Shown here piece after piece: positions 31,205-52,360 of a DNA stretch of 64,000 nt. The DNA is from Acidihalobacter aeolianus. GTDB lineage: Bacteria; Pseudomonadota; Gammaproteobacteria; DSM-5130; Acidihalobacteraceae. Below the pieces are notes generated by a model, which saw nothing but the letters and a program-made list of their open reading frames with translations, was not told the origin of the DNA and searched no databases. A program made the position numbers and the translations under genes. Numbering within the stretch: the first letter of the stretch is position 1; the number at the start of each line of letters is the position of its first letter. The stretch is taken from contig NZ_CP017448.1 in assembly GCF_001753165.1 (NCBI RefSeq), positions 886,462 to 950,461 on the forward strand, given 5' to 3'.

Positions 31205-31281
31205 GCGCCCGTAGCTCAGTTGGATAGAGTACCTGGCTACGAACCAGGTGGTCGGAGGTTCGAATCCTTCCGGGCGCGCCA
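31205..31281 (+). tRNA. tRNA-Arg (anticodon ACG)
   Basis: A 77-nt cloverleaf: acceptor GCGCCCG pairs with CGGGCGC; anticodon loop CTACGAA reads ACG, the wobble A becoming inosine; CCA is encoded. Its 3' end (31259-31281) is repeated imperfectly at 31489-31510, so this gene has served as an integration site. Confidence 0.97.
31259..31281 (+). repeat. att-like repeat, copy in the tRNA-Arg 3' end
   Basis: The last 23 nt of tRNA-Arg match 31489-31510 with one deletion and one substitution. This is the pattern of attL/attR flanking DNA inserted by a tyrosine recombinase. Confidence 0.7.
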
Positions 31282-31290
31282 TTAAAAAAC

Positions 31291-31318
31291 AAGGGCTTAC
31301 GCTTAAGGCGTGAGCCTT
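31291..31318 (+). terminator. stem-loop after tRNA-Arg
   Basis: An imperfect stem of about 10 bp (AAGGGCTTACGC pairing with GCGTGAGCCTT, with one bulge and one G-U pair) begins 9 bp after the tRNA. A short T-run follows only loosely. It probably terminates the tRNA transcript. Confidence 0.45.
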
Positions 31319-31326
31319 ATGTGTTT

Positions 31327-31488
31327 CTAGCGTAGGAGAATCGTAGAGTTGGACTCTACGGACTCCCACCGCCGCTCGACCCGCGCCGCCGCCTGGGACA
31401 AATGCTCCGGGGCGAGATGCGCATATCGCAACACCATCTCGAAAGACTTCCAACCGCCCGGCTCCATCAACTCCTGCAAGCTTGTGCC
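31327..31488 (-). pseudogene. tyrosine recombinase (phage-type integrase), C-terminal fragment
   Basis: The minus strand from 31488 to a TAG at 31327-31329 reads GTSLQELMEPGGWKSF, then EMVLRYAHLAPEHL and a basic helix. This is the end of a phage/XerD-like integrase, including the region of the catalytic tyrosine (RYAHL) and the GGWKS motif. Everything upstream of about 53 codons is missing; the fragment stops exactly at the second tRNA-like repeat. It is the scar of an integrated element that was deleted, leaving the integrase tail beside tRNA-Arg. Confidence 0.8.
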
Positions 31489-31510
31489 TTCAATCCTTCC
31501 AGGCGCGCCA
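31489..31510 (+). repeat. att-like repeat, distal copy
   Basis: TTCAATCCTTCCAGGCGCGC and the next two bases copy the tRNA-Arg 3' end (31259-31281) in direct orientation, 207 bp away. Together with the integrase tail between them it marks the far end of a decayed genomic island. Confidence 0.7.
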
Positions 31511-31689
31511 ATCGCTGGAATGAAGGATTAGGGATTTCGATTCTGCCGCATTTTTCGCTCTGTGGCGGCGCAGTAACCTGCCCAGGCACTGCAGATTTCG
31601 TCTGCATGCAAACCCTCGTGTACGGGCCATTCCAAAGCACACCACGCCGCCGGAGCATTGCTTCGCCGGTACCCGAGCGTGCGCACGAC
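31511..31689. other. stretch without a recognised gene, beyond the att-like repeat
   Basis: Between the distal att-like repeat and the small open frame at 31690 I see no convincing gene, RNA or repeat. Together with 31903-32000 it forms the unannotated part of the 719-bp gap between tRNA-Arg and draT. Confidence 0.5.
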
Positions 31690-31902
31690 TTACGTAATGA
31701 AATGATCGGCGACGAGGTAGCTGTCGAAAATCCTGTCGCATTCGAGATTGGCGGCCAGCATCGCCCGATGGAGTCGCGCACATTGCGGCCCGGCTCCGTG
31801 TTCCCGCACGCATTCGATGTATGCGGCTTCCCGTTCTCGTAGCCGCGCCTCTGCCTGCCTGAGTTGTTCAAGCAACCGGGCGCGATCCGTTTGCCCTGTC
31901 AT
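31690..31902 (-). CDS. small hypothetical protein, coiled-coil-like (doubtful)
   Basis: 70 aa, not recognised. The first 30 residues are charged and heptad-like (LLEQLRQAEARLREREAAYIECV), which fits a short coiled coil; CARLHRAMLAANLECDRIFDSYL follows. No ribosome site precedes the ATG at 31902, and the region is a decayed island edge, so this may be a remnant or a chance frame. Confidence 0.3.
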   Translation of the reverse strand: MTGQTDRARLLEQLRQAEARLREREAAYIECVREHGAGPQCARLHRAMLAANLECDRIFDSYLVADHFIT

Positions 31903-32000
31903 GTGGTTTGGTGGATCGCCGGAATAGACCTTAAAGATAGTGCGTAATTAGGCGCGCCGCCAATGGGCTTCCGTCGGCGTACTTCCCGTCGATGCGGGCT

Positions 32001-32861
32001 CTAGTGCCAGGCGAGTTCGACCTCGTACAGGCCGCCGATCACCATGTATTCGTCCTCGCCCTGCAGCTTGCCCGGCAGCAAGTCGCTGCTGAACACGACC
32101 TTGGCCACGGGGACGTCGGTGCTGAGGATGTAGTCACCGAATTCGTCGGCGCGTTCGCGGGTGGCGGTAAAGGAGTTGAGGTTGTTGAGCAGCAGGACGG
32201 CGTGCCGCCTGTCGAGCCGGGCGACGATTTCGTGTTCCCGAACGCGGCTGACGCCGCGGTAGAGGCGCAGGTGCCGGGTGCCGGGCTGGCGCCGGGCGAA
32301 TTCGTACTGGGTGTAGGCGTAGAGCAGGTCAAGCTGGGCTTCCATGGCATTGGTGCCGTAGAGGCCGGCCGCGCGGGCCTGGGCGTAATGGCGGTAGGCG
32401 TCCTCATCCTCGTCGCGCAGGGCATCGACATGGTAGCGGGCGAGCAGACCGAAGCGGGATTCGACCCAGCCCTTGAGCGCGGCCGCCTCGCGCCCGTCGG
32501 AATCGAAGCTCCAGCCGCGGATGACGCGCAGGTAGGTGGCGTGCCGGCGCTTGCGGCCGGAGAGGCCGGCCTCCTCGGGGTGTTCGAGCGAGAAGCACGC
32601 CGACATGTAGGCGGTGAACTGGCGCGCACGCTCCTCGGCGGCTCCCTCGATGTCGAGTCGCTCGAAGAGCTGGGCGTGAAGCTCGCGCACGCCGTCGATC
32701 TCCAGCGGTATGGGGTGTCGCTGGTACTCCAGGCCGCCGAGGATGTCGGCCGGCAGGCTGCAGTGATTGATGGATTGGCGGGCATGGGCGGGGATTGACG
32801 GGGCGGCCGTTTCGTTGTCGGTATCCTCACATGCTTTGTGGTGTTTTGTCGGCTCGGCCAC
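32001..32861 (-). CDS. draT: NAD+-dinitrogenase-reductase ADP-ribosyltransferase DraT
   Basis: 286 aa if translated from GTG at 32861; the frame stays open to 32996 but that would run through the nifH promoter. ADP-ribosyltransferase elements are visible: LRLYRGV (Arg), LNNLNSFTATRERADEFGDYI (Ser-type strand) and QGEDEYMVIGGLYEV (ExE). DraT switches off nitrogenase by modifying an arginine of NifH; the target residue is intact in the adjacent nifH. The gene diverges from nifH. The partner hydrolase draG is not in the window. The NifA site at 32816-32831 falls inside its 5' end, so the start may be further downstream. Confidence 0.85.
   Translation of the reverse strand: MAEPTKHHKACEDTDNETAAPSIPAHARQSINHCSLPADILGGLEYQRHPIPLEIDGVRELHAQLFERLDIEGAAEERARQFTAYMSACFSLEHPEEAGLSGRKRRHATYLRVIRGWSFDSDGREAAALKGWVESRFGLLARYHVDALRDEDEDAYRHYAQARAAGLYGTNAMEAQLDLLYAYTQYEFARRQPGTRHLRLYRGVSRVREHEIVARLDRRHAVLLLNNLNSFTATRERADEFGDYILSTDVPVAKVVFSSDLLPGKLQGEDEYMVIGGLYEVELAWH
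32816..32831 (+). promoter_or_regulatory. NifA upstream activator site for nifH
   Basis: A perfect TGT-N10-ACA motif, 100 bp upstream of the -24 element, the usual distance for NifA. The stretch between them (32880-32930) is A/T-rich and should bend easily. Confidence 0.8.
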
Positions 32862-32901
32862 GCGCTTCCATGCCTCGTGAGAAATCAATAAAAAACAATA
32901 A

Positions 32902-33894
<993 letters not shown>

Positions 33895-33908
33895 ACGGCA
33901 TGAAAGGA

Positions 33909-33932
33909 CGCCGGCCCCGCCTGGGGCCGGCG
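33909..33932 (+). promoter_or_regulatory. hairpin in the nifH-nifD gap
   Basis: A 10-bp GC-rich stem (33909-33918 with 33923-33932) lies 15 bp after the nifH stop with no T-run. Such hairpins are known to protect the nifH message, giving more NifH than NifDK. Confidence 0.55.
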
Positions 33933-33991
33933 CATCTTGTTCGCGTTGATCCGCGGATGGGCGGTCGGCGCGGTGCATGGAGATTGAAACG

Positions 33992-35473
33992 ATGACCCTG
34001 ATCAATCGAGAAGAAACCGAGGCCTTGATCCAGGAGGTGCTCGAAGTCTATCCGGAGAAGGCGCGCAAGGATCGCGCCAAGCACTTGGCGACCAACGACC
34101 AGTCGTTGGAGAAGTCCAACAAGTGCATCACCTCCAACCGCAAATCGCTGCCCGGTGTCATGACGATCCGCGGCTGCGCCTATGCCGGCTCCAAGGGCGT
34201 GGTGTGGGGTCCGATCAAGGACATGATCCACATTTCCCACGGCCCGGTGGGTTGCGGCCAGTATTCGCGTGCCGGCCGACGCAACTACTACGTCGGTACC
34301 ACCGGCGTGAACACCTTCGGCACCATGAACTTCACCTCGGATTTCCAGGAGAAGGACATTGTGTTCGGCGGTGACAAGAAGCTGGCGAAGATGATCGAGG
34401 AAATCGATCAGCTGTTCCCGCTGCACAAGGGCGTGTCGATCCAGTCCGAGTGCCCGATCGGTCTGATCGGCGACGACATCGAGGCGGTGGCCAAGAAGAC
34501 CTCCAAGGAAATCAACAAGCCGGTCGTGCCGGTGCGTTGCGAAGGTTTCCGCGGCGTGTCGCAGTCGCTGGGTCACCACATCGCGAACGACTCGATCCGC
34601 GACTGGGTTCTGGGCAACCGCGACAACGACAACAGCTTCGAGACGACGCCTTACGACGTGGCGATCATCGGCGACTACAACATCGGCGGCGACGCCTGGT
34701 CCTCGCGCATCCTGCTCGAGGAGATGGGTCTGCGCGTGGTGGCCCAGTGGTCCGGCGACGGCACCCTGGCCGAAATCGAGCTGACCCCCAAGGTCAAGCT
34801 GAACCTGCTGCACTGCTACCGCTCGATGAACTACATCTCGCGTCACATGGAAGAGAAGTACGGCATTCCATGGGTTGAGTACAACTTCTTCGGCCCGACC
34901 AAGATCGCCGAGTCGCTGCGCAAGATCGCCAGCTACTTCGACGACAAGATCAAGGAAGGCGCCGAGCGCGTGATCGAGAAGTATCGCGCCGAGTACGACG
35001 CGGTCATCGCCAAGTACCGTCCGCGCCTGGAAGGCAAGCGCGTGATGCTCTACGTCGGCGGCCTGCGTCCGCGTCACGTCATCGGCGCGTACGAGGATCT
35101 GGGCATGGAAGTCGTGGGTACCGGCTACGAGTTCGGTCACAACGACGACTACGACCGCACGATCAAGGAAATGGGCAACGCCACACTGATCTACGACGAC
35201 GTCACCGGCTACGAGTTCGAGGAATTCGTGAAGAAGGTGAAGCCCGACCTGATCGGTTCCGGCATCAAGGAGAAGTACATCTTCCAGAAGATGGGCATTC
35301 CGTTCCGCCAGATGCATTCCTGGGATTACTCGGGTCCGTATCACGGCTACGACGGCTTCGCCATCTTCGCCCGGGACATGGACATGACCCTGAACAACCC
35401 CTGCTGGGCCTTCGTGAAGACCCCGTGGGCGGCTTCGGATGATGCCGAGACCGCGCTGGCGGCCAACGCGTAA
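33992..35473 (+). CDS. nifD: nitrogenase molybdenum-iron protein alpha chain NifD
   Basis: 493 aa from the ATG at 33992 (GGAG 9 bp before); an upstream ATG at 33977 is less likely. P-cluster cysteines lie in [20 protein letters not shown] and [11 protein letters not shown]; the FeMo-cofactor ligands are the Cys of [10 protein letters not shown] and the His of [11 protein letters not shown]. All are present, so it should be a functional Mo nitrogenase. Confidence 0.99.
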
Positions 35474-35484
35474 GACTGCGGGCC

Positions 35485-35510
35485 GTGCCCGGGACACGAG
35501 TCCCGGGCAC
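35485..35510 (+). promoter_or_regulatory. hairpin in the nifD-nifK gap
   Basis: A 10-bp perfect stem (35485-35494 with 35501-35510), loop CACGAG, no T-run. Probably an mRNA-stabilising or attenuating element like the one after nifH. Confidence 0.5.
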
Positions 35511-35580
35511 GCAACCCGGAACACGATTTTCCCATTGAGCCGTCTGTCCACAGATGAGTGGCGCGGCGAGGAGAACCCCG

Positions 35581-37152
35581 ATGAGCCAAGATGTCGAGAA
35601 TATACAGCCGTCGTACCCTTTGTTCCGTAATGAGGAATACAAGAAGGTCATCGGCGAGAAGCGTGCGAAATACGAAGAGATGCACCCCGCGGAGAAGATT
35701 CGCGAGGTCTTCGAATGGACCACCACGAAGGAATATCAGGAACTCAACTTCCAGCGCGAGGCGCTGACCGTCAACCCGGCCAAGGCCTGCCAGCCGCTCG
35801 GCGCCGTGCTCTGCGCGCTGGGCTACGAGAAGACCATGCCCTACGTACACGGTTCACAGGGTTGCGTGGCCTACTTCCGCACCTACTTCAACCGTCACTT
35901 CAAGGAGCCGATCGCCTGCGTGTCCGACTCCATGACGGAAGATGCGGCGGTGTTCGGCGGCCAGAAGAACATGTTCGACGGCCTGGAAAACGCCAAGGCG
36001 CTGTATAAGCCCGACATGATCGCGGTCTCCACGACCTGCATGGCCGAGGTGATCGGCGACGACCTCAACGCCTTCATCAACAACTCGAAGAAGGAAGGGC
36101 ATATTCCGCAGGAATACCCCGTCCCCTTCGCGCATACGCCGAGCTTCGTGGGTTCGCATACCACCGGCTGGGACAACATGCAGGAAGGCATTCTGCGTTA
36201 CTTCACGCTCAACTACATGGAAGACAAGCAGGTCGGCTCCAACGGCAAGCTCAACGTCGTCCCTGGCTTCGAGACCTATCTCGGCAACTTCCGCGTGATC
36301 AAGCGCATGCTGGGAGAGATGGGTGTCGAGACGACCATGCTGTCCGACCCCACGGAAGTGCTCGATACGCCTGCCGACGGCAAGTTCCGCATGTATGCGG
36401 GCGGCACCACGATGGATGAGGTCAAGGATGCCCCCAACGCATTCGACACCGTCTTCCTGCAGCCCTGGCAGTCCGAGAAGAGCAAGAAGTTCGTGCAGAA
36501 CACCTGGAAGCACGAAGTACCCAAGCTCAACATCCCGATGGGCCTGGAGTGGACCGACGAGTTCCTGATGAAGGTCTCCGAGATCACCGGCAAGCCGATT
36601 CCGGAGTCCCTGACCAAGGAACGCGGTCGCCTGGTCGACATGATCACCGACTCGCATGCCTGGCTGCACGGCAAGCGCTATGCGCTGTACGGCGATCCGG
36701 ACTTCGTGATGGGCATGACCAAGCTGCTGCTTGAGCTGGGTGCCGAGCCGATCCACATCCTGGCCAACAACGCCAACAAGCGTTGGAAGAAGGCGATGGA
36801 CAAGATCCTGGCCGACTCGCCATACGGCAAGGGTTGCGAGGTCCACAACGGTCGCGATCTGTGGCACCTGCGTTCTCTGGTGTTCACCGACAAGCCGGAC
36901 TTCCTGATCGGCAACTCCTACGGCAAGTTCATCCAGCGCGATACGGTCCACAAGGGCGAGGAATTCGAAGTGCCGCTGATTCGCTTCGGCTTCCCGATCT
37001 TCGACCGTCATCACCTGCACCGCGACACCACGCTGGGTTACGAGGGTGCCATGCACGTCCTCAAGACCCTGGTGAACGAAGTGCTGGCGCGTCTGGACGA
37101 CGACACTCGCGGAATGGGCACGACGGACTACAACTACGACCTGATCCGCTGA
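35581..37152 (+). CDS. nifK: nitrogenase molybdenum-iron protein beta chain NifK
   Basis: 523 aa from the ATG at 35581, preceded by GAGGAGA. P-cluster cysteines are seen in KACQPLGAVLCALG, HGSQGCVAYFRTYF and STTCMAEVIGDD. The N-terminal extension typical of the long-form NifK is present (VENIQPSYPLF). It forms the alpha2-beta2 tetramer with NifD. Confidence 0.99.
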   Translation: MSQDVENIQPSYPLFRNEEYKKVIGEKRAKYEEMHPAEKIREVFEWTTTKEYQELNFQREALTVNPAKACQPLGAVLCALGYEKTMPYVHGSQGCVAYFRTYFNRHFKEPIACVSDSMTEDAAVFGGQKNMFDGLENAKALYKPDMIAVSTTCMAEVIGDDLNAFINNSKKEGHIPQEYPVPFAHTPSFVGSHTTGWDNMQEGILRYFTLNYMEDKQVGSNGKLNVVPGFETYLGNFRVIKRMLGEMGVETTMLSDPTEVLDTPADGKFRMYAGGTTMDEVKDAPNAFDTVFLQPWQSEKSKKFVQNTWKHEVPKLNIPMGLEWTDEFLMKVSEITGKPIPESLTKERGRLVDMITDSHAWLHGKRYALYGDPDFVMGMTKLLLELGAEPIHILANNANKRWKKAMDKILADSPYGKGCEVHNGRDLWHLRSLVFTDKPDFLIGNSYGKFIQRDTVHKGEEFEVPLIRFGFPIFDRHHLHRDTTLGYEGAMHVLKTLVNEVLARLDDDTRGMGTTDYNYDLIR

Positions 37153-37159
37153 GCCCTCG

Positions 37160-37189
37160 AACCGCGCCGGGAAGATACCCGGCGCGGTT
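37160..37189 (+). terminator. terminator-like hairpin after nifK
   Basis: A 12-bp perfect stem (37160-37171 with 37178-37189) with a 6-nt loop, followed by a pyrimidine run CTCTCTCTTG. It probably reduces transcription into nifT and nifY. Confidence 0.7.
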
Positions 37190-37227
37190 CTCTCTCTTGT
37201 CGGCGCCTGGCGCCAAGGAGTATTGCC

Positions 37228-37440
37228 ATGCCGAACGTGATGATCAGACGCGACCCCAGCGGGAAGCTGTCATTCTACGTGGCCAAGAAGGATCTCGAGG
37301 AAACCATCGCCAGTCTGGAATTCGACGGCCCCGACGGCTGGGGCGGCGAGGTCGAGCTCATGGATGGTTCGCGTTATTACCTGGAGCTGATGCCGGCGCC
37401 ACCGGATCTGCCGGTGACGTTGCGCGCCAAACGCCTCTAG
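37228..37440 (+). CDS. nifT: nitrogen fixation protein NifT/FixU
   Basis: 70 aa. MIRRDPSGKLSFYVAKKDLEE and WGGEVELMDGSRYYL are the family features. NifT lies next to nifK in many diazotrophs; it is not essential in those tested and its role is unclear. The ATG at 37228 follows CAAGGAG. Confidence 0.93.
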   Translation: MPNVMIRRDPSGKLSFYVAKKDLEETIASLEFDGPDGWGGEVELMDGSRYYLELMPAPPDLPVTLRAKRL

Positions 37441-37457
37441 GCGGGAGGGGCACGACG

Positions 37458-38168
37458 ATGAAAGCACCTGCCATGCTGGAACGCGAGGCCGCGCTTTGCA
37501 TCGGTCTTGCCGCCCGCGCGCTGCCGGAAATCGGCGTGCGCGGTTTACTGGAAGTGCTCTTGGGCCGCTTCGGCGCCCCCCTGAGTCAGGCTGCACTGGC
37601 CAAAGTCACCGTGGCAGACCTCAAGACCCTCCCCGGGCTCGAGGACCTGTCGGTCGAGCAGCTGACCGCCGCCGCCGCATGCCTGCGCGGAGAAGGCGAG
37701 GAAGCCGAACTCGAACCCCCGATCCAGCCTTACGCCGAGGGCGACATGCCCGGTTCGATCCGCGTCGCCTGCGCCTCCAATGGCGGCGACCACGTCGACG
37801 GCCATTTCGCTTCCTGCAGCCGATTTCTGATCTATCAGGTCCTGCCCGACGAACTTCGGCTGATCGCCGTACGCGAAGCCGTGCCTGAGGAGCCGGAGCC
37901 CGGCGAGGACAAGCACGCCAAGCGTGCCGCGCTCATCGCCGACTGCCATCTGCTGTACCTGCTCTCGATCGGCGGACCTGCCGCCGCCAAGGTGGTCAAA
38001 CGCGGGGTGCATCCCGTCAGGCTGCGCGAGGCTCGCCCGGCCGAGGCGCTGCTCGGCGAGCTGCAGGGCGTCATGCGCGGGGCACCGCCGCCCTGGCTGG
38101 CCAAAATCATGGGACAACCGCCCGAGGCGCGCGTGCGCTTCGAGCGCGAAACGGAGGCGCCGCAATGA
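37458..38168 (+). CDS. nifY: NifX/NifY-family cofactor-binding protein, NifY-like
   Basis: 236 aa from the ATG at 37458. The C-terminal half is the dinitrogenase iron-molybdenum cofactor domain (RVACASNGGDHVDGHFASCSRFLIYQV), and the N-terminal half a helical domain as in NifY. NifY holds apo-NifDK ready for FeMo-cofactor. It overlaps the next gene by 4 bp. Confidence 0.87.
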   Translation: MKAPAMLEREAALCIGLAARALPEIGVRGLLEVLLGRFGAPLSQAALAKVTVADLKTLPGLEDLSVEQLTAAAACLRGEGEEAELEPPIQPYAEGDMPGSIRVACASNGGDHVDGHFASCSRFLIYQVLPDELRLIAVREAVPEEPEPGEDKHAKRAALIADCHLLYLLSIGGPAAAKVVKRGVHPVRLREARPAEALLGELQGVMRGAPPPWLAKIMGQPPEARVRFERETEAPQ

Positions 38169-38440
38169 TCGATCCCAATCTGCCTGCTGCCGTCGCCGCC
38201 CAGTTGGACGGGCGCGGCCTGGATGGGGATTCGCTGAGCGCGCTGCGCAAGGCCTATCCGGACATCCACTTCACCGCCTGCCTCGACGACGATGTCGTCG
38301 ATCTGATTCACCCGTACGTCACGCAGCCGGGTCTGAACATCTACCTTGTGGACGGCAATGACCACTGCATGACCCTCACCACTGACACCGAGTCCGCCAC
38401 CGGGCTGCTGCTGGCCGAAGTGGTGGACGAGGACGAGTAA
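38165..38440 (+). CDS. small nif-cluster protein (DUF6129-like)
   Basis: 91 aa. Not matched to a characterised function. The N-terminal half is helical (VAAQLDGRGLDGDSLSALRKAYP) and the C-terminal half acidic, ending EVVDEDE. Its place between nifY and a hemerythrin gene, with a 4-bp overlap to nifY, is shared by small DUF6129-type proteins of other diazotrophs; that name rests on recall. Confidence 0.65.
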   Translation: MIDPNLPAAVAAQLDGRGLDGDSLSALRKAYPDIHFTACLDDDVVDLIHPYVTQPGLNIYLVDGNDHCMTLTTDTESATGLLLAEVVDEDE

Positions 38441-38482
38441 ACGCTGGCGCTGCCCCGATTCACGATGCTGGAGGTCAGAGAC

Positions 38483-38983
38483 ATGACGATGCCATCGATC
38501 CAACCCGCGTGGTCTCAGGACTACTCGCTGGGCATCGAGGAAATCGACGAGCAGCACCGCATCGTGTTCGAGCAGATCGACGCCCTGCGAACCGGGATCG
38601 TCCGCGGCGAGACCCGGCGCGAGATCGCCGGCCGCATCGAGCAGTTGATCGAATACACGCGCGTACACCTCGTCATGGAAGAGTCCACGATGCGCCTCCT
38701 CGCCTACACGGACTACGCGGCGCACAAGCGGCTGCACGACGCCGCCCTGATCGAGATGGATGTCTATGCCCAGCGCCATCATGCCGGCGAGACCCTGGTT
38801 GCCGAGGCGTTTCTTGCCTATGCGGATAACTGGTGGCGCCAGCACATCCTCGATGGCGATGCCCGCTACGTGCGCAGCCTCACGGGCGGCAAGGGCGTTC
38901 CCAAACGCTGGCTACCCGACCTGGGCGGACTCCTGCGCCGTCGGCGCAAGGCGGGCGGCCACCACAACCTGCCGGGTGCCTGA
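38483..38983 (+). CDS. bacteriohemerythrin
   Basis: 166 aa from the ATG at 38483, preceded by GGAGG. Oxygen-binding di-iron ligands are visible: IDEQHRIVFEQID near 25, HLVMEESTMR near 65, AHKRLHDAAL near 82 and WWRQHILDGD near 117. Hemerythrins bind O2 reversibly; inside a nif cluster the likely role is to buffer oxygen near nitrogenase, an inference from position. Confidence 0.9.
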   Translation: MTMPSIQPAWSQDYSLGIEEIDEQHRIVFEQIDALRTGIVRGETRREIAGRIEQLIEYTRVHLVMEESTMRLLAYTDYAAHKRLHDAALIEMDVYAQRHHAGETLVAEAFLAYADNWWRQHILDGDARYVRSLTGGKGVPKRWLPDLGGLLRRRRKAGGHHNLPGA

Positions 38984-39760
38984 ATGGGCGGCGCGCCCAC
39001 CGCCATCGTCGAGCGGGGGAGGTACGGCCCCTCCGCAACCTCGCAGATGGACTGCGAGACCTGTGCGCATGGCGCACGCTTCGCGGCCGGTCGCTGCCGT
39101 CCCGACGATGCCTGCGTGATGGCCTGCAGCGGCCGGCGCATCGACCGCTTTTTCCGCAGCAACCCCGAGCTGGCCCCGGCCTACATCGAAGACCCTTTCT
39201 GGGAAACCCGCGCGATCATCGTGCGCTATCTGCCCGACGAGATGGTGCTGGAGCTGATCGACGACGACGACGAAGCCGTGCGCCGCGCGGTGGCCGTCCG
39301 TCTGCCGTCTGAGCGACTCAGCGAACTGATGCACGACCCGGATCGCGAGGTGCGCATCACCGTGGCCGCGCGTCTGCCCGAGGCCGATCTGCCCGCCTTG
39401 ATCGACGACCCCGACTACTCGGTGCGCACCTGGCTCGCGCGGCGCCTTCCTCCCGCGCAGCTCCTGCCCCTGGTGCGCGACCGCGACCGTCAAGTGCGCC
39501 AGGCCGTTGCCGAGCGCCTGCCGGAATCGCTGCTTCCCCAACTCGCCGCCGACCCGGCCGCCGAGGTGCGCGCCGCCGTAGCCGCCCGCTTGCCGGCCGA
39601 GGCAGCGGTACGCATGCTGACGGACCCAGACTGGACTGTCCGCCTCGCCGCCGTACCCCGCGTCCGCCGCCAGGCCCTGCGCCGCCTGCTCGACGACCCG
39701 GTGGAAGATGTCCGCGCAGCTGCCGAGGAACGTCTGGGGCGACTCGCCAGCGTGAGCTAG
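38984..39760 (+). CDS. 4Fe-4S leucine-rich-repeat-variant protein (LRV type)
   Basis: 258 aa. The N-terminus has a cysteine-rich cluster C-x2-C-x9-C-x5-C-x3-C (MDCETCAHG...CRPDDACVMAC) as in the Azotobacter LRV protein, which binds a [4Fe-4S] cluster, followed by about seven helical repeats of 23-25 residues with pattern VRxxVAxRLP. It starts directly after the hemerythrin stop. Found in nif clusters; role unknown. Confidence 0.85.
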   Translation: MGGAPTAIVERGRYGPSATSQMDCETCAHGARFAAGRCRPDDACVMACSGRRIDRFFRSNPELAPAYIEDPFWETRAIIVRYLPDEMVLELIDDDDEAVRRAVAVRLPSERLSELMHDPDREVRITVAARLPEADLPALIDDPDYSVRTWLARRLPPAQLLPLVRDRDRQVRQAVAERLPESLLPQLAADPAAEVRAAVAARLPAEAAVRMLTDPDWTVRLAAVPRVRRQALRRLLDDPVEDVRAAAEERLGRLASVS

Positions 39761-39853
39761 CCGGGAAACCCGAAGCGCATTTCCGCGCGATTCGTTAGTC
39801 ATTGGGTCGCGATGGCGTTCCGTCGCGTCCGGGGCGCGTGAAGAGAGTTTCCT

Positions 39854-39876
39854 GGCGATAAGAATAAACTATCGCC
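39854..39876 (+). promoter_or_regulatory. inverted repeat upstream of the GAF gene
   Basis: A 7-bp inverted repeat (39854-39860 with 39870-39876, GGCGATA) encloses an A-rich 9-nt loop 20 bp before the GAF start. It could be an operator or a hairpin; no factor can be named. Confidence 0.35.
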
Positions 39877-39896
39877 TGGCATGCCACGGGAGGCCT

Positions 39897-40732
39897 ATGC
39901 TGATAGACGGGAGCCGTGCAGGGGCACACCGCCTGCATGGCGAATCCGGCGACACGATAACGGCGAGCGACATGTCCTACGATGCGGATTTCATATCTCG
40001 TCTGATCGACGCCTCCGCGTTGATCGAAAGGCATAAAAGTCTGGACGACGCCATGGGCGAACTGGCGAAGATGACGGCCCAACTGCTGTCGGCCGAACGC
40101 TCCTCCATCATGCTGCTGGGCGAGGATGAGGCGCAGGACGACATCCCCGCCGAGGCGACCCTGCGTGTCTACGCCCATTATGGAACCATGCCCAAGGTTG
40201 CCTACGAGGTCGCCACCCGCATCAACGAGGGCGTTTCGGGCCATGTCGCCGCGACCGGCGAGCCCCTGCTGATCCCGGATATCGCGCAATCGACCTTTGC
40301 CGGCAAGTCGCGACGGCGTAGCGGCCGGGGCGGTAGCCTGATCTCCGTGCCGATTCGCCTCGGCGGCAAGATCATTGGCGTGATCAACGTTTCCGACCGC
40401 ACGGGCGCGGCTCGTTCACCACGCGGGACCTGGATTTGCTCAACGTATTCTCGATGTTCATGGGACAGTCGATCCACGTAGCCCAACTGCAGAACGTGCT
40501 GCGCTCGCGTTTCCTGCAGCTTGCCCTGGCCCTGGAACAGAAGAGCGGCGATTCGCGAGACACGCCGCTGAGCCCCGACCCGGCGCATCTCGCCAAGATC
40601 GTCGCCAAGACGATCTACCGGGAACTCACGGAGGGCGGGTTCGGTGCCAGCCAGATCGTCGGGGTGGCCACCGAGGTGATCGGCTTGCTGAACGAACGGC
40701 TGGAGCGCGGGGAACTGCGGCCCAGTCGCTAG
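39897..40732 (+). pseudogene. GAF-domain protein with a frameshift
   Basis: The first frame (39897 or ATG 39972) runs through a GAF domain: SSIMLLGEDEAQDD, EGVSGHVAATGEPLLIPDIA, LISVPIRLGGKIIGVINVSDRTG, then loses similarity near 40400-40414 and stops at 40481. The next frame resumes at once with FTTRDLDLLNVFSMFMGQSI and continues to 40732. One base gained or two lost in the GC run there would join them into about 278 aa. It may be a real mutation or a sequence error. GAF proteins of this type sit in nif clusters, possibly as sensors. Confidence 0.75.
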
Positions 40733-41203
40733 AGCCATCGATGGGCTGGGCGTCTCACCCGGGCTGGACTTTCACACCATATATGTGCAGGGATGACAAG
40801 CAACGATATTCATCACGGTGAAAGACGTTCGACTTTGCCAGAAGACCTCGTGTTTCTCGGCACGCTACTGTTCGCGCTTGTTGTACTGCGCAACAGCGGG
40901 AGCCGTAAAAGGATTCTGTAGGGCTGAAATCGGCCACATCCGGTCGTTTATGCTCATTCCATATCAACCCGTTGGACGGCAGGATTACAGCGGGAACCAG
41001 TCGTTAGCCTTACTCTGATGGGCGTCAGCGTGGTGTCCCCGTTTCCACACATGCATGTATAGACAGAGAGGTAACGTAATGCATCGAAATCAAAGGGTTA
41101 TAGTCGATTCCCTCGCGTCTCTATATTAAAGAATGTCCGGACCCGTCGGTCTCTATATTTACTGTTATTCGCAAAAGGATGAGAACCCGTGGCTAAAGTT
41201 TAT
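40733..41203. other. gene-free stretch before the insertion sequence
   Basis: About 470 bp of mixed composition, turning AT-rich near the insertion sequence. No convincing gene was seen; a 70-codon minus frame (40755-40967) has no ribosome site. An 11-bp direct repeat GTCTCTATATT occurs at 41117 and 41149. It is probably remnant accessory DNA. Confidence 0.5.
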
Positions 41204-42695
41204 CCTGAATCCGTAACTTAGCAGGCCATTATGATGTGATAAATACCGTAATTTATAGGCTATATTGCTAAAATAGATGCTCTCGAAAAGGTCACTCAGT
41301 CAGTGAAAAAATGAAGCGCTTAAAAATTGAACAATCAGATGCAGATATCATCAGCCACAGTGGCCTGGCACTGATCGGTCAGGCCATAAAACGCCACACG
41401 AAGCTGAGTAGCCAGCTGGATGCAAGCATCCCGTTACGCCATGGCATCAAGCATTCTGATGTCATCAAGAGCTACCTGGCATTACTGAGTATCGGAAAAA
41501 GCGATTTTGAGGCCATCAATACCATTGAGAGTGAATTCTATTTCATGAGCGCGATGGATATCAATGACATCCCTTGCGAAGCGACACTGCGCCAACGCAT
41601 GGATAAACATGCGGAACACTTTTTGCCCATCGTCGAGAGAGCCAGCCGGGATTTTCTGAGCAATATCCAACCTACGCTACGGCCCTTGCCCACCGGACAT
41701 ATTCCGATCGATGCCGATGTGACCCCGATGGATAATTCGGGCAGCCACAAAGAAGGCGTATCGAGAACCTATAAGGGACATGACGGGTTTGCCCCCATGG
41801 CGGTATACCTCGGCCAGGAAGGCTATTGTATCGGCTTTGACTTTCGTGAAGGCAAGCAGCATTGCCAGAAAGACACACCGGCCTTGCTGGCAAAGACCTT
41901 GCGACAGGCCCGGGAAATCACAACGCAGCCCCTTTTGCTCAGGCTCGATGGTGGCAACGATTCCATCGAGAACATCGACGTCATCCTCGAGCACAGCGAA
42001 GACCATAAAACCCAGTCCCCTGTTGATTTCCTCATCAAATGGAATCCCCGCAAACAGGATAAAGCCTATTGGCTTGGGCTTGCGGAACAAAAAGGACGAT
42101 GGGAAGAGCCACGGGAAGGCAAGCGGATAGCCACTTTCAGTCTGCAGGTTTCGCGGCAATGGCAAGGTGATGAGTATTCGGTACGGCAGGTCATTCGTCT
42201 CACTGAAAGAACCCTTGATAAACAGGGGCAGATATTGCTGGTTCCCGAGATTGATCTTGAAGGATGGTGGACAAGCCTGGACATCAGTGAAGGCGATATC
42301 ATTCAGCTTTATGCGGATCATGGTACATCGGAACAGTTCCACAGCGAATTTAAAACTGACATGGATATCGAACGCTTGCCCTCCGGGAAATTCGCCACCA
42401 ATGCGTTGGTATTGGGAGCCAGTGTGCTGGCCTACAATATCCTGCGCTGGATTGGGCAAAACGGCTTGTTGGGTCCAACGTCTCCGAAACGCAACAAAGC
42501 GAAAAGGCGACGGATCAAGACAGTGATGCAAGAGCTGATGTATGTTGCCGCACGCATCATCCGAACATCGCGCTACATCAAGATAGGCTTTGGCAAAGGT
42601 TGCCGTGCACTTCAGGCCTTTGAAACGGTGTATCAGAAACTGGCCTACGGATAAAGAAAGGCCGATAAGCGTGGCCAAACGGGCGTAGTTACAGG
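41204..42695 (+). mobile_element. IS1380-family insertion sequence (ends approximate)
   Basis: The transposase gene is flanked by imperfect inverted ends: CCTGAATCCGTAACTTAGC from 41204 and, read inward on the minus strand from 42695, CCTGTAACTACGCCCG. Alignment needs a 6-base gap, and no matching 4-bp target duplication is seen (TTAT against ATCA). Boundaries are therefore tentative. GC is lower than in the nif genes around it. Confidence 0.6.
41311..42654 (+). CDS. IS1380-family transposase
   Basis: 447 aa, the family length. DDE-type segments are visible: IDADVTPMDNSG near 133, LLRLDGGNDS near 210, and YADHGTSEQFHSEFKTD with ERLPSGKFATN near 345-365, the most characteristic IS1380 stretch. 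The frame is intact, so the element may be active or recent. Confidence 0.92.
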   Translation: MKRLKIEQSDADIISHSGLALIGQAIKRHTKLSSQLDASIPLRHGIKHSDVIKSYLALLSIGKSDFEAINTIESEFYFMSAMDINDIPCEATLRQRMDKHAEHFLPIVERASRDFLSNIQPTLRPLPTGHIPIDADVTPMDNSGSHKEGVSRTYKGHDGFAPMAVYLGQEGYCIGFDFREGKQHCQKDTPALLAKTLRQAREITTQPLLLRLDGGNDSIENIDVILEHSEDHKTQSPVDFLIKWNPRKQDKAYWLGLAEQKGRWEEPREGKRIATFSLQVSRQWQGDEYSVRQVIRLTERTLDKQGQILLVPEIDLEGWWTSLDISEGDIIQLYADHGTSEQFHSEFKTDMDIERLPSGKFATNALVLGASVLAYNILRWIGQNGLLGPTSPKRNKAKRRRIKTVMQELMYVAARIIRTSRYIKIGFGKGCRALQAFETVYQKLAYG

Positions 42696-42892
42696 ATCAG
42701 TGTGCGCAGAATACGTTGAATCGACATCATTTCCGTCTGCCAACAATAATGATGTCAGTTTTTATTCAAAAAACACAACCGTTGCAGCTTATTCATGTGG
42801 CGATACGAAATGTTAACGAACCATGTTGAAGGCTGCATGCGAAAATACGGATTCAGGTTTATGTCATAAACAATGATGGAAGCACAGAGGCA

Positions 42893-43987
42893 ATGTCAGG
42901 AATCCACTGCAAGAACGAAGACCTGGAGCTTCAGCGAATATTGGAGAGTAATCCTGACCTAATACCTGGCGATCAGATAAATCCATCAGATCCACGACGA
43001 TGGTTAGTTGTTAAACGTGAAATGCCGGTTCCTGATCCAAGTACAGGCGATAATAGATGGAGCATTGATTTATTTTTTGTGGATCAAGATGCTATGCCAA
43101 CTTTTATTGAATGTAAAAGATATAACGATACTCGTGCTAAAAGGGAAGTTGTAGGTCAAATGCTCGAATATGCGGCAAATGGTCATTACTACTGGTCTAA
43201 GGATGAGATGCGTACGTATGCCGAGCAAGCTGCTGAGAAAAATGGTATATCCTTGGAGGAAGAAATCAAACGCCTGCAGCCTGATGAGCCTGAATCTGTT
43301 GATGGGTTCTTTCAGCATGTTCAGGATAACTTGAGAGGGGGTCAAGTTCGTTTGGTTTTCTTCATGGAGGAATCCCCTCCGGAACTAAAAAGTGTAGTAG
43401 ATTTTCTTAATAAGCAAATGGAGCGGTCAGAGGTGCTTCTGGTAGAGGCTCGTCAATATGAACATAAAGGAACCAAAATAGTAACTCCCATCTTGTTTGG
43501 CTTTACTGAAGAAGCACGGCAGGTCAAGAAGACTGTGTCTGTAACTACAGGACAAAGAAGGAAATGGGACAAAGAATCTTTCTTTAACGATGCAAGGGAG
43601 CGCTTGATAGAAAAAGAAGTTTCAGCCATCAAGCAACTTTTTGACAAATCACAAGAACTAAAATGTGAGCTTTCGTGGGGCACAGGGAAAATCAGCGGAT
43701 CTTTCTCCGCTAAATGGCCGCACTTAGGTACATACTCAGTTTATTCGGTATTTTCGGATGGCTCAATCGCGATCAATTATGGTAGTTTCAAAAACACGCC
43801 TGAGCAAAAAGAATTTATCGCGGTGCTAAAAAATGAATTAGTAAGTCATGTGGGCTTTTCTGCGCCTGATGACTATGAAAGGCGTTACCCAAATTACAAA
43901 ATAAACGAATGGTCAGAAAAGGTTGATGGTTTACTCACGGTGTTAGATATAATAAATGAAAAGTTCCCTGCGCCAGAAAGCGTATAA
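42893..43987 (+). CDS. PD-(D/E)xK nuclease-like protein in an integron-type cassette
   Basis: 364 aa, not assigned to a named family. Residues 59-89 have the restriction-endonuclease-like pattern: D59 in SIDLFFVD, E73 and K75 in FIECKRY, Q89 in GQMLEYA. The rest is mixed alpha/beta. The gene is AT-rich against its GC-rich surroundings, and its TAA lies inside the attC site at 43983-44068, as in integron cassettes. It may act in defence against foreign DNA; that is inferred from the fold only. A ribosome site is not obvious. Confidence 0.7.
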   Translation: MSGIHCKNEDLELQRILESNPDLIPGDQINPSDPRRWLVVKREMPVPDPSTGDNRWSIDLFFVDQDAMPTFIECKRYNDTRAKREVVGQMLEYAANGHYYWSKDEMRTYAEQAAEKNGISLEEEIKRLQPDEPESVDGFFQHVQDNLRGGQVRLVFFMEESPPELKSVVDFLNKQMERSEVLLVEARQYEHKGTKIVTPILFGFTEEARQVKKTVSVTTGQRRKWDKESFFNDARERLIEKEVSAIKQLFDKSQELKCELSWGTGKISGSFSAKWPHLGTYSVYSVFSDGSIAINYGSFKNTPEQKEFIAVLKNELVSHVGFSAPDDYERRYPNYKINEWSEKVDGLLTVLDIINEKFPAPESV

Positions 43988-44068
43988 CAATCACATGCAC
44001 TCGGACAGCAAAAAGCGCCGCTCCTTTGTCGCTCTACTTTTTACTGCCGGTGATGTGCGGCGTTAGCT
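43983..44068 (+). repeat. attC site of the first cassette
   Basis: 86 bp of imperfect inverted repeat: ATAACAATCACATGCACTCG on the left pairs with CGGTGATGTGCGGCGTTAGC on the right, and CAGCAAAAAG pairs with CTTTTTACTG inside. The right core is GTTAGCT, one base off GTTRRRY. This is how integron attC sites are built. Confidence 0.75.
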
Positions 44069-44085
44069 GCTCAAGGAGATAGTCC

Positions 44086-44649
44086 ATGGGACTTCATGTA
44101 CACAATCTTGGGAATCTACCGAACACAGACGATGGAAGGGACTATTTCATCTACGTTCTCGATTATGGCTGGAAGGAACCATTAACGGATGCGCTCGTGG
44201 CAAACTTCACCAATATGGCCCGAATGGCATCACAAACAAGATCGGTAGTAGTGGCCGGAATCGAACCCATCCATTTTGCAAATGACGTTTTTTCATGGCA
44301 CGGAATAAACGGTGAAGATGGTGAGCGCATTTTGCCCGCCATCCTAATTACAACACTCACGCCTTCGTATTTCAGAGAACACAACGAAGAGCATCAAAGG
44401 TCTGGTGAAATTAATGACAAGCTATTGTTGATCCCGCTTAAGGCTGCGTGTAAAACAACAGACGATGTGATCCAATTGATAAAGTCCATTTTCAACGACA
44501 TTAAGGAAAAGAAGAAGCTATCTGGTTTTTCTATTGCCAAGACAATTAACAAAAATGGTTTGCGTCGGCTTGCAGACGCAGTAATTCTTGAGCCGAATAT
44601 TTCGGGGGTGGGCATTGATCTTCGCAAGTTATTCCAGCCAGGCAGCTAA
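44086..44649 (+). CDS. cassette-encoded protein of unknown function
   Basis: 187 aa, not recognised. AT-rich, no signal peptide. YFIYVLDYGWKEPLTDALVANF and RSVVVAGIEPIHFANDVFSWHGI suggest an alpha/beta fold; ILPAILITTLTPSYF follows. AAGGAG stands 8 bp before the ATG. The gene fills a complete cassette, starting 17 bp after one attC site and ending with its TAA inside the next. Function unknown. Confidence 0.65.
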   Translation: MGLHVHNLGNLPNTDDGRDYFIYVLDYGWKEPLTDALVANFTNMARMASQTRSVVVAGIEPIHFANDVFSWHGINGEDGERILPAILITTLTPSYFREHNEEHQRSGEINDKLLLIPLKAACKTTDDVIQLIKSIFNDIKEKKKLSGFSIAKTINKNGLRRLADAVILEPNISGVGIDLRKLFQPGS

Positions 44650-44715
44650 CCAGCCCATCAAGCCGACGCTCACTTCGCTGCGCTTCGTTCGCGCGGCTTA
44701 TGGGCGGCGTTGAAC
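44644..44715 (+). repeat. attC site of the second cassette
   Basis: 72 bp: CTAACCAGCCCATCAAGCCG pairs imperfectly with CGGCTTATGGGCGGCGTTGA, with an inner CGCTCACTTCGCTGCGCTTCG segment. The right core GTTGAAC fits GTTRRRY exactly. Confidence 0.85.
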
Positions 44716-44841
44716 GTGAACGACCGCTGTTGGCTCTGGAGCTGACAGCGTGTCACGTACAAGCGACTGGCAGCTGGGGTCGTTTTCTGCCTGAGTAGCA
44801 CGGCATTTCAGGTTCTGTTTTCAGAAACGTTCTAGCTTAAT
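44716..44841. other. possible cassette remnant after the second attC
   Basis: The 126 bp up to the SulP gene hold AACGACC at 44718 and GGTCGTT about 60 bp on, a weak inverted pair around GCTG/CAGC blocks. It may be the remains of a further non-coding cassette. No gene seen. Confidence 0.3.
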
Positions 44842-46371
44842 TCAAGCCAGTGCATTATCCGCCACGTGATAATGCGGGTCTTCGCTGATGTTGACCTCGA
44901 CGAGATTCCCCGCCTTTTCGAGCAGTACCCGGCATTCCTGGCTCAGATGCCGCAGGCGCAGCGATTTTCCGGCGTCTGCGTAGCGGGTGGCCAGTGTGTC
45001 GATGGCCTCGATGGCGGAGTGGTCGGCCACTCTGGAGTGAGCGAAATCGACTACCACGTCCTTGGGATCGTTTTCGGGTTTGAACAGTTCTCCGAAGCGG
45101 TGCGTGGACGCGAAAAACAGAGGGCCGTGCACTTCGTAGATGCGGGTGCCGTCGGCTTCGTCGCGGGCTTGCACGTAGATGTGTTTCGCCTGTTTCCAGG
45201 CGAACGTCAGCGCGCTGGCGATGACGCCGACGACGACGGCAATCGCAAGGTCCGTGAAAATGGTGATGACCGTGACCAGCATGCCGACGAAAATATCCTC
45301 GCGCGGGATTTTGTTCAGCAGGTTGAAGCTGCCCCATTCGAAGGTCTGGATCACCACCATGAACATCAGGCCGACCAGCGCGGCCACCGGCACCAGATTG
45401 ATCAGGCCGGAGGCGAACATGATGAACGCCAGCAGCGACAGCGCCGCGACGATGCCGGACAGGTTGCGCTGACCGCCGGAGGTGACGTTGATCATGGTCT
45501 GGCCGATCATGGCGCAGCCGCCCATGCCGCCGAAGAAGCCGTTCACCATGTTGGCGGCGCCCTGGCCGATGGACACGCGATTCCCCTGGCCGCGCGTGTT
45601 CGTCACCTCATCCACGACCGTCATCGTGAGCAGCGATTCGATCAGACCCACGCCGGCCAGGATGACCGCGTAGGGCAGGATGACCTTGAGCGAATCCAGC
45701 GTGATCGGCACGCTCGGGATGTGGAAGCTCGGGAACCCGCCGCGGATGTCGGCAATCGAGCTGACCAGCGGCGTGTGCAGCCCGGCCAGATGTACCAGCA
45801 GGGTCAGTGCAATGATCGCGGCAAGCCCTGCGGGAAAGGCGCGGGTGATCTTGGGCAAGACGTACATGATCGCCATGGTGAGTGCGGTCAGGCCGAGCAT
45901 GACGAACATCGGTGTGCCCGACAGCCAGTGTGCGGTGCCATCGGCACCCTGCACCTTGAAGTGGTTCAGTTGGGCCAGAAAAATGACGATGGCCAAGCCG
46001 TTGACGAAACCGAGCATCACGGGTACCGGGACGATGCGAATATATTTTCCGAATTTCAATAAACCGAAAATAATTTGCAGCAGCCCAGCCACGATTATCG
46101 TGGCGAACAAATACTGCACGCCGTGCTTGGCCACCAGCGCGACCATCACCACGGCCATCGATCCGGTGGCGCCCGAAATCATTCCGGGGCGCCCGCCGAC
46201 CAGCGAAGTCACCAGCCCCATCATGAAGGCGCCGTAGAGCCCGACCAGAGGATTGACGCCGGCCACGAACGCGAAGGCGACGGCTTCCGGCACCAGGGCG
46301 AAGGCGACGGTCAGGCCTGAAAGAATATCGTCCCTGGCCTTGGCCACATGGGCGTAATACAACTGGAACAC
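44842..46371 (-). CDS. SulP-family anion transporter with STAS domain
   Basis: 509 aa from GTG at 46371, which has GGAG 6 bp before it; an ATG at 46464 in the same frame is less likely. Ten or more membrane segments, with the SulP signature GLTVAFALVPEAVAFAFVAGV near the start and GGMGGCAMIGQTMINVTSGG in the middle; the C-terminal 110 residues are a STAS domain (YEVHGPLFFAST; VVVDFAHSRVADHSAIEAID). Members carry sulfate, bicarbonate or other anions; the substrate cannot be told here. It separates the accessory block from nifENX. Confidence 0.9.
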   Translation of the reverse strand: MFQLYYAHVAKARDDILSGLTVAFALVPEAVAFAFVAGVNPLVGLYGAFMMGLVTSLVGGRPGMISGATGSMAVVMVALVAKHGVQYLFATIIVAGLLQIIFGLLKFGKYIRIVPVPVMLGFVNGLAIVIFLAQLNHFKVQGADGTAHWLSGTPMFVMLGLTALTMAIMYVLPKITRAFPAGLAAIIALTLLVHLAGLHTPLVSSIADIRGGFPSFHIPSVPITLDSLKVILPYAVILAGVGLIESLLTMTVVDEVTNTRGQGNRVSIGQGAANMVNGFFGGMGGCAMIGQTMINVTSGGQRNLSGIVAALSLLAFIMFASGLINLVPVAALVGLMFMVVIQTFEWGSFNLLNKIPREDIFVGMLVTVITIFTDLAIAVVVGVIASALTFAWKQAKHIYVQARDEADGTRIYEVHGPLFFASTHRFGELFKPENDPKDVVVDFAHSRVADHSAIEAIDTLATRYADAGKSLRLRHLSQECRVLLEKAGNLVEVNISEDPHYHVADNALA

Positions 46372-46712
46372 GTGCAACTCCGGCGTGCAAAAGGGTGGGG
46401 ATTCTACGCGATTCGGCCGGCGCGACAAGCGAGTGCCGCGGGCGTTGAAATGGCCGAATTTCACGGCGATGGATTTGTTCAGGCGATGAAACTAAGGGTT
46501 TCGTCGGCGTCTGTCCACTCTAGCCGGGGCTTGTCACATGCGGATTACGCTGCGCACCGACCCGATCCGAGAATCGATACGGCAGGTTCGAATCGAGGCT
46601 AAAATGCCAACCCTGCGTGCGGCGAGAACGCGGGCGCCGAGGGGGCGGCTGCATCTGTCGGCCGTTTGAAATGCCGCACGCTATATCCTCCATGACCGCA
46701 TCGGAAAGGGCT
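46372..46712. other. gap between divergent SulP and lipoprotein genes
   Basis: 341 bp with promoters presumably for both neighbours. I see no gene, strong hairpin, NifA site or sigma-54 motif in it. Confidence 0.4.
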
Positions 46713-47087
46713 ATGAACGAACCGATCAAGATTCTCCTGCTCTCGCTGGCGATGGTCTCGACCGCCTTCGCGGGCTGCAATCCGGCCGAGCTCGGCAAGC
46801 GGGTGGGCGAGGGGGCATTCGTCGGCCAACCCGCGATCAAGAGCGGCCAGCCGCTGGGTTACCTGTGCACGCGGACCGTGGCCGTCGCGAGCGAGCGCTA
46901 CCGCTTCGATGTCGTCGCCGGATCGTTCTACGAGAGCGAGATCAATTACTGCACGACGCATCCGGTGGGCAGCGTTGCACTCTACGAACCGGAGCCTGGC
47001 CGCTTCGTCGTGTATCTGCGGCACAGGAAGCTGCGTCTGCGTTCCTGCTACCCGGCGATGCGGGTCGCGCCGTCGCCTACCCGGTAG
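46713..47087 (+). CDS. small exported protein, possible lipoprotein
   Basis: 124 aa from the ATG at 46713, preceded by GGAAAGGG. A signal segment (KILLLSLAMVSTAFAGC) ends at a cysteine close to a lipobox, suggesting a lipoprotein. Two further cysteines (YLCTRTVAV; INYCTTHP) could form a disulfide in the periplasm. Function unknown; it lies ahead of nifE but is probably not part of that operon, since nifE has its own promoter. Confidence 0.6.
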   Translation: MNEPIKILLLSLAMVSTAFAGCNPAELGKRVGEGAFVGQPAIKSGQPLGYLCTRTVAVASERYRFDVVAGSFYESEINYCTTHPVGSVALYEPEPGRFVVYLRHRKLRLRSCYPAMRVAPSPTR

Positions 47088-47185
47088 CCGAACACGCCGC
47101 GAATCTGAGTCTGCGGTCGCCTATCCGGCGTCGACGATGCGGCCTTCGCCGGGTTTGTCGCAGCCCCTCCGGAGCTGTCTCCCTG

Positions 47186-47201
47186 TGTCGCGTTTGCGAC
47201 A
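47186..47201 (+). promoter_or_regulatory. NifA upstream activator site for nifE
   Basis: A perfect TGT-N10-ACA motif, with palindromic interior CGCGTTTGCG, 148 bp before the -24 element. Confidence 0.78.
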
Positions 47202-47348
47202 AAGCCATTGACCCTTCCTGGGTTCGATCCCACATGCCCGAAGCATATCGTGTGTGGCTTCATATTAGTCTGAATCAAAAGGAAAAATCGTTTTCATGGC
47301 GAGTCTTCCCGGGGCAGCGTAGGCATGGCGGTGCACGCCTTCGGGCCG

Positions 47349-47364
47349 TGGCATGACGGTTGCA
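47349..47364 (+). promoter_or_regulatory. sigma-54 promoter of nifENX
   Basis: TGGCAT-N5-TTGCA with 10 nt between GG and GC. Transcription would start near 47375, about 40 bp before nifE. The rest of the 326-bp gap 47088-47413 holds only the NifA site. Confidence 0.88.
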
Positions 47365-47413
47365 ACATGGCCCGTGTGTCGCTCTCTGCGGCGTCTTTCA
47401 GGGGACTGCCAAG

Positions 47414-48823
47414 ATGATGAAGCCGGAAGAACTCAAGGCCATGCTCGACGAGCCGGCCTGCAGCCACAACAAGAAGTCGAAGTCGGGGTGCTCCAAGCCC
47501 AAGCCGGGTGCCACCGCCGGCGGCTGCGCCTTCGACGGCGCGCAGATCGCGCTGCTGCCGATCGCCGACGTGGCACATATCGTCCACGGTCCCATCGCCT
47601 GCGCCGGCAATTCGTGGGACAACCGCGGCACGCGTTCCTCCGGGCCGACGCTCTACCGCCTGGGCATGACCACCGACCTGACCGAACAGGACGTGATCAT
47701 GGGGCGCGGCGAGAAGCGGCTGTTCCATTCGATCAAGCAGGCGGTGGAGTCATACGATCCTGCTGCCGTGTTCGTGTACAACACCTGCGTCCCGGCGGTC
47801 GCCGGCGATGATGTCGGCGCGATCTGCAAGGATGCCGCCGCGCGCTGGGGCGTGCCGGTGGTACCGGTCGACGCGGCCGGGTTCTACGGCACCAAGAACA
47901 TGGGCAATCGCCTGGCCGGCGATGCGATCTGCAAGCACGTCATCGGCACGCGCGAGCCCGATCCGGTGCCCGAGTCGCTACAGCGGCCGGGTATCCGTGT
48001 GCACGACATCAATCTGGTCGGCGAATACAACATCGCCGGCGAGTTCTGGCACGTGGCGCCGCTGCTCGACGAGCTGGGTCTGCGCATCCTCGGTTCCCTG
48101 TCCGGCGACTCGCGCTTCCGCGATATCCAGACCATGCATCGCGCCGAGGTGACCATGGTGGTGTGCTCGAAGGCGCTGCTCAACGTCGCGCGCTATCTCG
48201 AGGAGCAGCATTCGGTGCCGTGGTTCGAGGGCAGCTGGTACGGCGTGGACGATACCTCGAAGGCACTGCGCGATTTCGCGCGGGTGATCGGCGACGAGGA
48301 TCTGATCGCGCGCACCGAGGCCGTGATCGCACGCGAGGAGGCGAAGACCGTCGCGGCGCTCGACCCCTGGCGCGAACACCTCGACGGCAAGCGTGTGCTG
48401 CTCTATACCGGCGGCGTGAAATCCTGGTCCGTGGTCTCTGCGCTCAAGGATCTGGGCATGGACGTGGTCGCCACCGGCACCAACAAGTCCACGGAAGAGG
48501 ACAAGGAACGCATCCGCGAGATCATGGGCGAGAAGACCAAGATGATCGAGGACGGCAGCCCGGCCAACCTGATCGGCATCGTGCGCGAATACGGCGCCGA
48601 CATCCTCATCGCCGGCGGACGCAACATGTACACGGCGCTCAAGGCCCGCGTGCCGTTTCTCGACATCAACCAGGAGCGCGAGTTCGCCTACGCGGGATAC
48701 GACGGCATGGTGGAACTGGCCCGTCAGCTCGCGCTGACCATCGAATCCCCGGTGTGGGAGTCCGTGCGCCGCGCCGCGCCGTGGCATCCGGCCGAGCCGC
48801 TCGCGGAGGCGGTCAATGGCTGA
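47414..48823 (+). CDS. nifE: FeMo-cofactor scaffold protein NifE
   Basis: 469 aa from the ATG at 47414. Cysteine-rich N-terminus ([20 protein letters not shown]), [19 protein letters not shown] and [17 protein letters not shown] match NifE, a NifD relative. With NifN it forms the scaffold on which the NifB product becomes FeMo-cofactor. It overlaps nifN by 8 bp. Confidence 0.97.
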
Positions 48824-50240: not shown

Positions 50241-50253
50241 AAGGAAGACAGGC

Positions 50254-50688: not shown

Positions 50689-50754
50689 AACACCCTCACG
50701 GCACGCGCGCTGCGGCGACGCGTGCATTCAAGAGCCAGCAGTGGAGTCGAAGTC

Positions 50755-51225: not shown

Positions 51226-51240
51226 GAGGAGGGATGAAGG

Positions 51241-52249: not shown

Positions 52250-52262
52250 CGCCTTCGGGGAT

Positions 52263-52278
52263 TGTCGCAAATCCGACA
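52263..52278 (+). promoter_or_regulatory. NifA upstream activator site for fdxN
   Basis: A perfect TGT-N10-ACA motif 82 bp before the -24 element of the next promoter; it lies just after the preceding gene and before that operon's terminator. Confidence 0.75.
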
Positions 52279-52285
52279 AAGTCGG

Positions 52286-52319: not shown

Positions 52320-52360
52320 TAACTAATTGAATTTTAAGGATGTTATCCGGCTTCGGTCGG

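Follow-up and report, generated by a model that had tools for sequence, protein, structure and literature searches.

The window analysed here is a 64 kb stretch (C1:886462–950461) of a genome that has the contigs C1 (3.36 Mb) and C2 (162 kb). Within it, a complete tRNA-Arg(ACG) gene, with a complete tRNA-Ser(GCT) gene at 31048–31140 to its left, is followed by a hairpin, the end of a tyrosine recombinase gene, a partial second copy of the tRNA end, draT, a block of nitrogen-fixation genes and apaH (Table 1). The draT open reading frame runs from 32001 to 32996 on the minus strand and encodes a DRAT domain; the region containing most of it (31511–32840) gives only two short matches, with E of about 0.007, in four genomes of the same family, and a small open reading frame at 31690–31902 has no Pfam hit and no plasmid match. 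The nif block holds nifHDK, genes for a hemerythrin-like protein, an LRV/FeS protein, a GAF protein and an IS transposase, and then nifEN, nifX, a gene for a NifX-associated protein and a ferredoxin-like open reading frame (fdx). The IS element (41205–42865) encodes a DDE_Tnp_1_4 transposase and is present in the genome in three further full-length copies and one split copy at 99–100% identity, as well as once in the family genome G003 at 98%.

Table 1. Features at and around the tRNA-Arg(ACG) locus, in window coordinates.
Feature	Position	Strand	Basis
tRNA-Arg(ACG), complete; putative integration target	31205..31281	+	ARAGORN
Terminator-like hairpin and putative element end (attL side), to int stop	31282..31329	+	homologous to phage attP flank and G047
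Tyrosine recombinase C-terminal 53 codons and stop (int tail), truncated pseudogene	31327..31488	-	homology
Putative attR remnant: last 19 nt of tRNA-Arg with one mismatch (31492–31510), plus TTC	31489..31510	+	repeat search
Segment without counterpart in four family genomes; holds most of draT ORF	31511..32814		genome comparison
nif block	32815..52613	+	families; colinearity and third positions against G002
Right junction of presumed inserted block, no att copy	52614..52643		sequence comparison
apaH, next after tRNA-Arg locus in two congeners	52644..53561	-	family, comparison

The 3′ end of the tRNA gene (31263–31281) is directly repeated at 31492–31510, where the distal copy is truncated and matches at 18 of 19 positions. 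The preliminary description had likewise recorded an imperfect repeat, although the spacing that it gave, 207 bp, needs correction, as the distal copy starts 211 nt downstream of the final tRNA base. With up to three mismatches the 19-nt pattern occurs at only two places in the 64 kb (0.11 expected by chance), and a direct count in the window gives two places with up to four mismatches and four with up to five. Four of the six occurrences of the octamer GGCGCGCC in the window are at 31273, 31502, 31951 and 52670.

The coding part of the int tail between the two copies lies on the minus strand at 31330–31488, with its stop codon at 31327–31329, a position that agrees with the C-termini of its closest relatives, and it includes the RYAHL motif. 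A Pfam search with the isolated 53-residue tail gave no hit; the tail is 79% identical over 38 amino acids to the C-terminus of a full-length frame with a Pfam Phage_integrase domain and, in its best match, 75% identical over all 53 residues to the integrase of a phage on the IMG/VR contig IMGVR_UViG_3300032255_000005. The earlier identification of a recombinase tail between two tRNA-end copies thus holds. The homology to integrases stops at 31488–31491. A breakpoint codon shared by the window and the genomes G047 and G087 was considered and dropped, since the G047 homology may extend further once the phage sequence is aligned.

The IMG/VR contig is an intact temperate phage of 42.6 kb with a full-length integrase frame of 358 amino acids, and it also encodes a repressor-like protein and tail proteins. 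Inspected by eye, the sequence 3′ of its integrase consists of a terminator-like hairpin and then, in reverse complement, the tRNA-Arg 3′ half from the anticodon loop onwards, and in the alignment its attP has in common with the tRNA gene the segment 31237–31281, from the anticodon loop to the 3′ end. The phage and the window are thus alike in having an attP that corresponds to this tRNA half, in the same hairpin, and in the orientation of int beside att. Because 31237–31488 aligns throughout, with small gaps only, with the attP–int end of this intact phage (and with G047), the lost element was most likely a prophage. Unlike the intact phage, the window keeps only the int tail and what appears to be a truncated attR, and there are no phage structural genes in the 211 nt left between the att copies, so that the locus is a remnant and not a prophage. 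A point against this reading is that the nearest intact phage is 75% identical to the window in the int tail.

Two other origins deserve weighing. An integrative island or integrative and conjugative element (ICE) with a phage-like integrase could have left the same scar, and islands with other integrases do occur at tRNA-Arg in relatives (that in G002 has an Arm-DNA-bind_3 integrase), while an attP-like copy is present on C2, the 162 kb replicon of the same genome. We consider this unlikely, as the best match to the tail and att together is a contig with tail and repressor-like genes, and other matches in the viral collection are of phage-genome size. A search with a strict motif for the att repeat near the integrases of other viral contigs found it in 0 of 40, a result of little weight because the same motif also missed the L256 attP, which was recognised by eye. 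The second possibility, that the tRNA end was simply duplicated in tandem and the 19-nt copy is no att remnant, has a parallel in a Nevskia metagenome-assembled genome (MAG), where the tRNA-Arg end is duplicated in tandem with no integrase (L178:9111–9500). There the downstream hairpin is duplicated along with the tRNA end, whereas in the window an integrase tail homologous to the phage attP–int end sits between the copies, and a plain duplication seems to us highly improbable.

The attP-like copy on C2 (L002:1501–1565, corresponding to G000:C2:54214–54278) comprises the final 47 nt of tRNA-Arg(ACG) with flanking sequence, and in G003 the chromosomal tRNA-Arg is followed by a gene similar to the one downstream of this copy. 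The same att-like sequence, 48–50 nt at 98% identity, is also present on plasmids of Legionella adelaidensis and Piscirickettsia salmonis. C2 may be an integrative plasmid.

Other genomes show how widely tRNA-Arg(ACG) is used by related elements. Among 95 genomes, including that of the window (G000), an intact or near-intact related integrase directly follows a tRNA-Arg(ACG) confirmed by ARAGORN in G008, G045 and G047; a related frame is found there in G056 by coordinates alone, and a decayed copy in G087. In G047 (contig C18, L086:2171–11107) there are tandem elements: one integrase, intact, adjoins the tRNA, while an older att half that still carries a decayed int tail is found 8.6 kb further on, and it seems that a newer element displaced the older tRNA half and its int tail by that distance. 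The site is not a universal hotspot, because none of 80 named aspartate-kinase loci (mostly Pseudomonas) carries a related integrase, with a full tRNA-Arg match present in 70 of the 80. A class-wide DNA search returned matches at E ≤0.01 in 28 of 369 genomes; only six are convincing (G000, G047, G266, G157, G080 and G092), and the other 22 are short.

Closer relatives carry other things at this position. The preliminary description looked to them for a full-length integrase, and related ones do occur at tRNA-Arg in the three genomes named above, but the same element was not found intact at the same locus in the close relatives G001–G004, which hold other contents there; the island at tRNA-Arg in G004 has a distant recombinase homolog. 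It had also been pointed out that relatives lacking an insertion might share the whole of 31282–31510, which would make the repeat and the integrase fragment ancestral. None of G001–G004 has the whole stretch: G001 has in common only the first 70 nt after the tRNA (31282–31351, 82.5% identity over 63 columns), and neither the int tail nor the distal copy is seen after its tRNA-Arg. The shared 70 nt may be part of a phage end, or a host terminator, that is older than the species or ancestral to the genus.

The form of the scar itself suggests how it arose. The distal att copies in G002, G004 and G047 and the copy on C2 are about 45–50 nt long and run from the anticodon-loop sequence CTACGAACC, or a few bases before it, to the end of the tRNA, while that in the window begins only in the T arm. 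Because the att repeats in relatives span this length from the anticodon loop, we interpret the window copy as a probable truncated attR that would have lost its first 25–28 nt. Where this remainder meets int, the gene is truncated at about codon 301 (in the numbering of the 346-amino-acid frame of G080). A single deletion would account for both truncations, so that the proposal of a cut made exactly at the distal copy is unnecessary; the TTC at 31489–31491 may represent a short microhomology.

To the right of the scar, the position of apaH shows how the locus differs among relatives. In the window its stop, at 52644, lies about 21 kb from the tRNA-Arg locus; in the congener G001 apaH and the genes next to it come 1.3 kb after the tRNA-Arg locus, and in the congener G002 a 9 kb island separates them from it. 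The sequence 32815–52613 is colinear with G002:C1:312787–335600 at 89–93% identity, save for 40935–44709 around the IS element, and past the nif block G002 runs after 175 nt into a block found at C1:2738381–2745618 in the window genome. In G001, the segment C1:1849362–1853942 (L122) contains colinear relics of nifH, a SulP-like gene and nifE, which are the remains of a decayed nif cluster.

Comparison of third codon positions with G002 separates the block from its surroundings: seven nif-associated genes are 87.4–97.3% identical, the eight genes from apaH rightwards are 53.0–67.5% identical, and ask is 66.7% identical. Because the nif values lie far above those of ask and the right-flank genes, the nif block has, on codon-level comparison, probably been exchanged recently by horizontal transfer, a signal that supports transfer but not any particular route. 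The high similarity to G002 is not confined to nif, for alaS (26608–29244), on the left of the site, reaches 93.9% at third positions and encodes a protein that is 98.5% identical (the adjacent ask protein is 89.6% identical); alaS has apparently been exchanged by recombination.

That the nif block is a newcomer at this locus can be questioned. It might be ancestral here and have been moved or lost in G001 and G002; in G004, of a sister genus, apaH is not next to tRNA-Arg, so the polarity cannot be read from the outgroup, and in the right-flank genes the window genome is no closer to G002 than to G001. Since tRNA-Arg is followed by apaH in two congeners, with nif genes or their relics at two other, unlike loci, and since the nif similarity to G002 requires transfer in any case, we allow this explanation a small share of the probability and favor arrival of the block in the window genome.

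The preliminary description had further suggested that the neighbouring nif region could have come or moved through the tRNA-Arg site. Its position between tRNA-Arg and apaH and its horizontal acquisition agree with this, but its passage through att does not find the same support, as the block is placed outside the two att copies and the partner att copy sought beyond it is absent from its right end and from elsewhere in the window. PF00589 gives no hit in the nif block among its 15 matches in the genome, and tblastn with five related integrases finds no match besides the int tail. The longest repeat joining the ends of the block is 10 nt and inverted, and in a direct comparison 52% of right-end shuffles reach at least 10. 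Passage through the att site is therefore unproven and not favoured.

A variant of this idea makes the nif block the cargo of a second, tandem element whose left att would be 31492–31510 and whose right att and integrase were lost, an arrangement for which the tandem elements of G047 provide a precedent. The block does start about 0.5–1.3 kb past the distal copy, in the interval from the tRNA locus to apaH, and it has been horizontally exchanged; set against this are the absence of an att copy around 52613 and in the rest of the window, the absence of an integrase hit from the block, and its location elsewhere in G002, where the 40 kb fetched around it contain neither a tRNA nor any att copy above chance. 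We regard such an origin as quite improbable, and the broader notion that the tRNA-Arg(ACG) hotspot serves as a landing pad, with nif spreading in the genus on tRNA-targeted elements of which this one lost its right att and integrase, as very doubtful.

We favor an account in which two separate events shaped the locus, and place its probability, taken as one joint reading, at roughly 0.87. A temperate phage would have entered tRNA-Arg(ACG) at the anticodon loop through site-specific recombination, its attP rebuilding the 3′ half of the tRNA and the terminator, and its int being placed tail-first against the tRNA, as the match to the intact phage shows. A later deletion, reaching from about codon 301 of int into attR, would have taken out all else of the prophage together with the first 25–28 nt of attR, so that the int tail was joined to the 19 nt with which attR ends, as judged from repeat lengths in relatives. 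Separately, the nif block and draT came to lie between the scar and apaH, a placement that is observed, as is the transfer signal of the nif genes; the route was probably horizontal transfer followed by a recombination that presumably left no att site or integrase. The earlier view of an element that entered at tRNA-Arg(ACG) and was then lost, leaving its integrase tail, is thereby supported, and can be refined to a temperate phage with the distal copy as a truncated attR.

Prophage scars at tRNA genes are common, and the one in the window offers a fairly clean view of how they can form; the scar is ordinary, and its neighbourhood is the more informative. Two species that are much diverged in ask and the right-flank genes have nif genes near-identical at third positions, and among three congeners no two carry these genes at the same location, one having only relics of them. 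The window nif block is thus a workable case for how diazotrophs exchange nitrogen-fixation genes.

Among known systems, the symbiosis ICEs of Mesorhizobium and Bradyrhizobium also place nitrogen-fixation traits on chromosomal mobile elements (PMC8627217, PMC9174649); unlike these, the window block has neither an integrase homolog nor a second att site that we could find. The nif islands of Pseudomonas stutzeri are reported to show none of the features of a mobilizable island but to have short flanking repeats (PMC4174501), and the window block differs from them in that its ends have no repeats above chance. It resembles the P. stutzeri island described there in being set between two housekeeping genes; that island lies between cobS and gshP, and the window block lies beside a tRNA gene that carries a phage scar.
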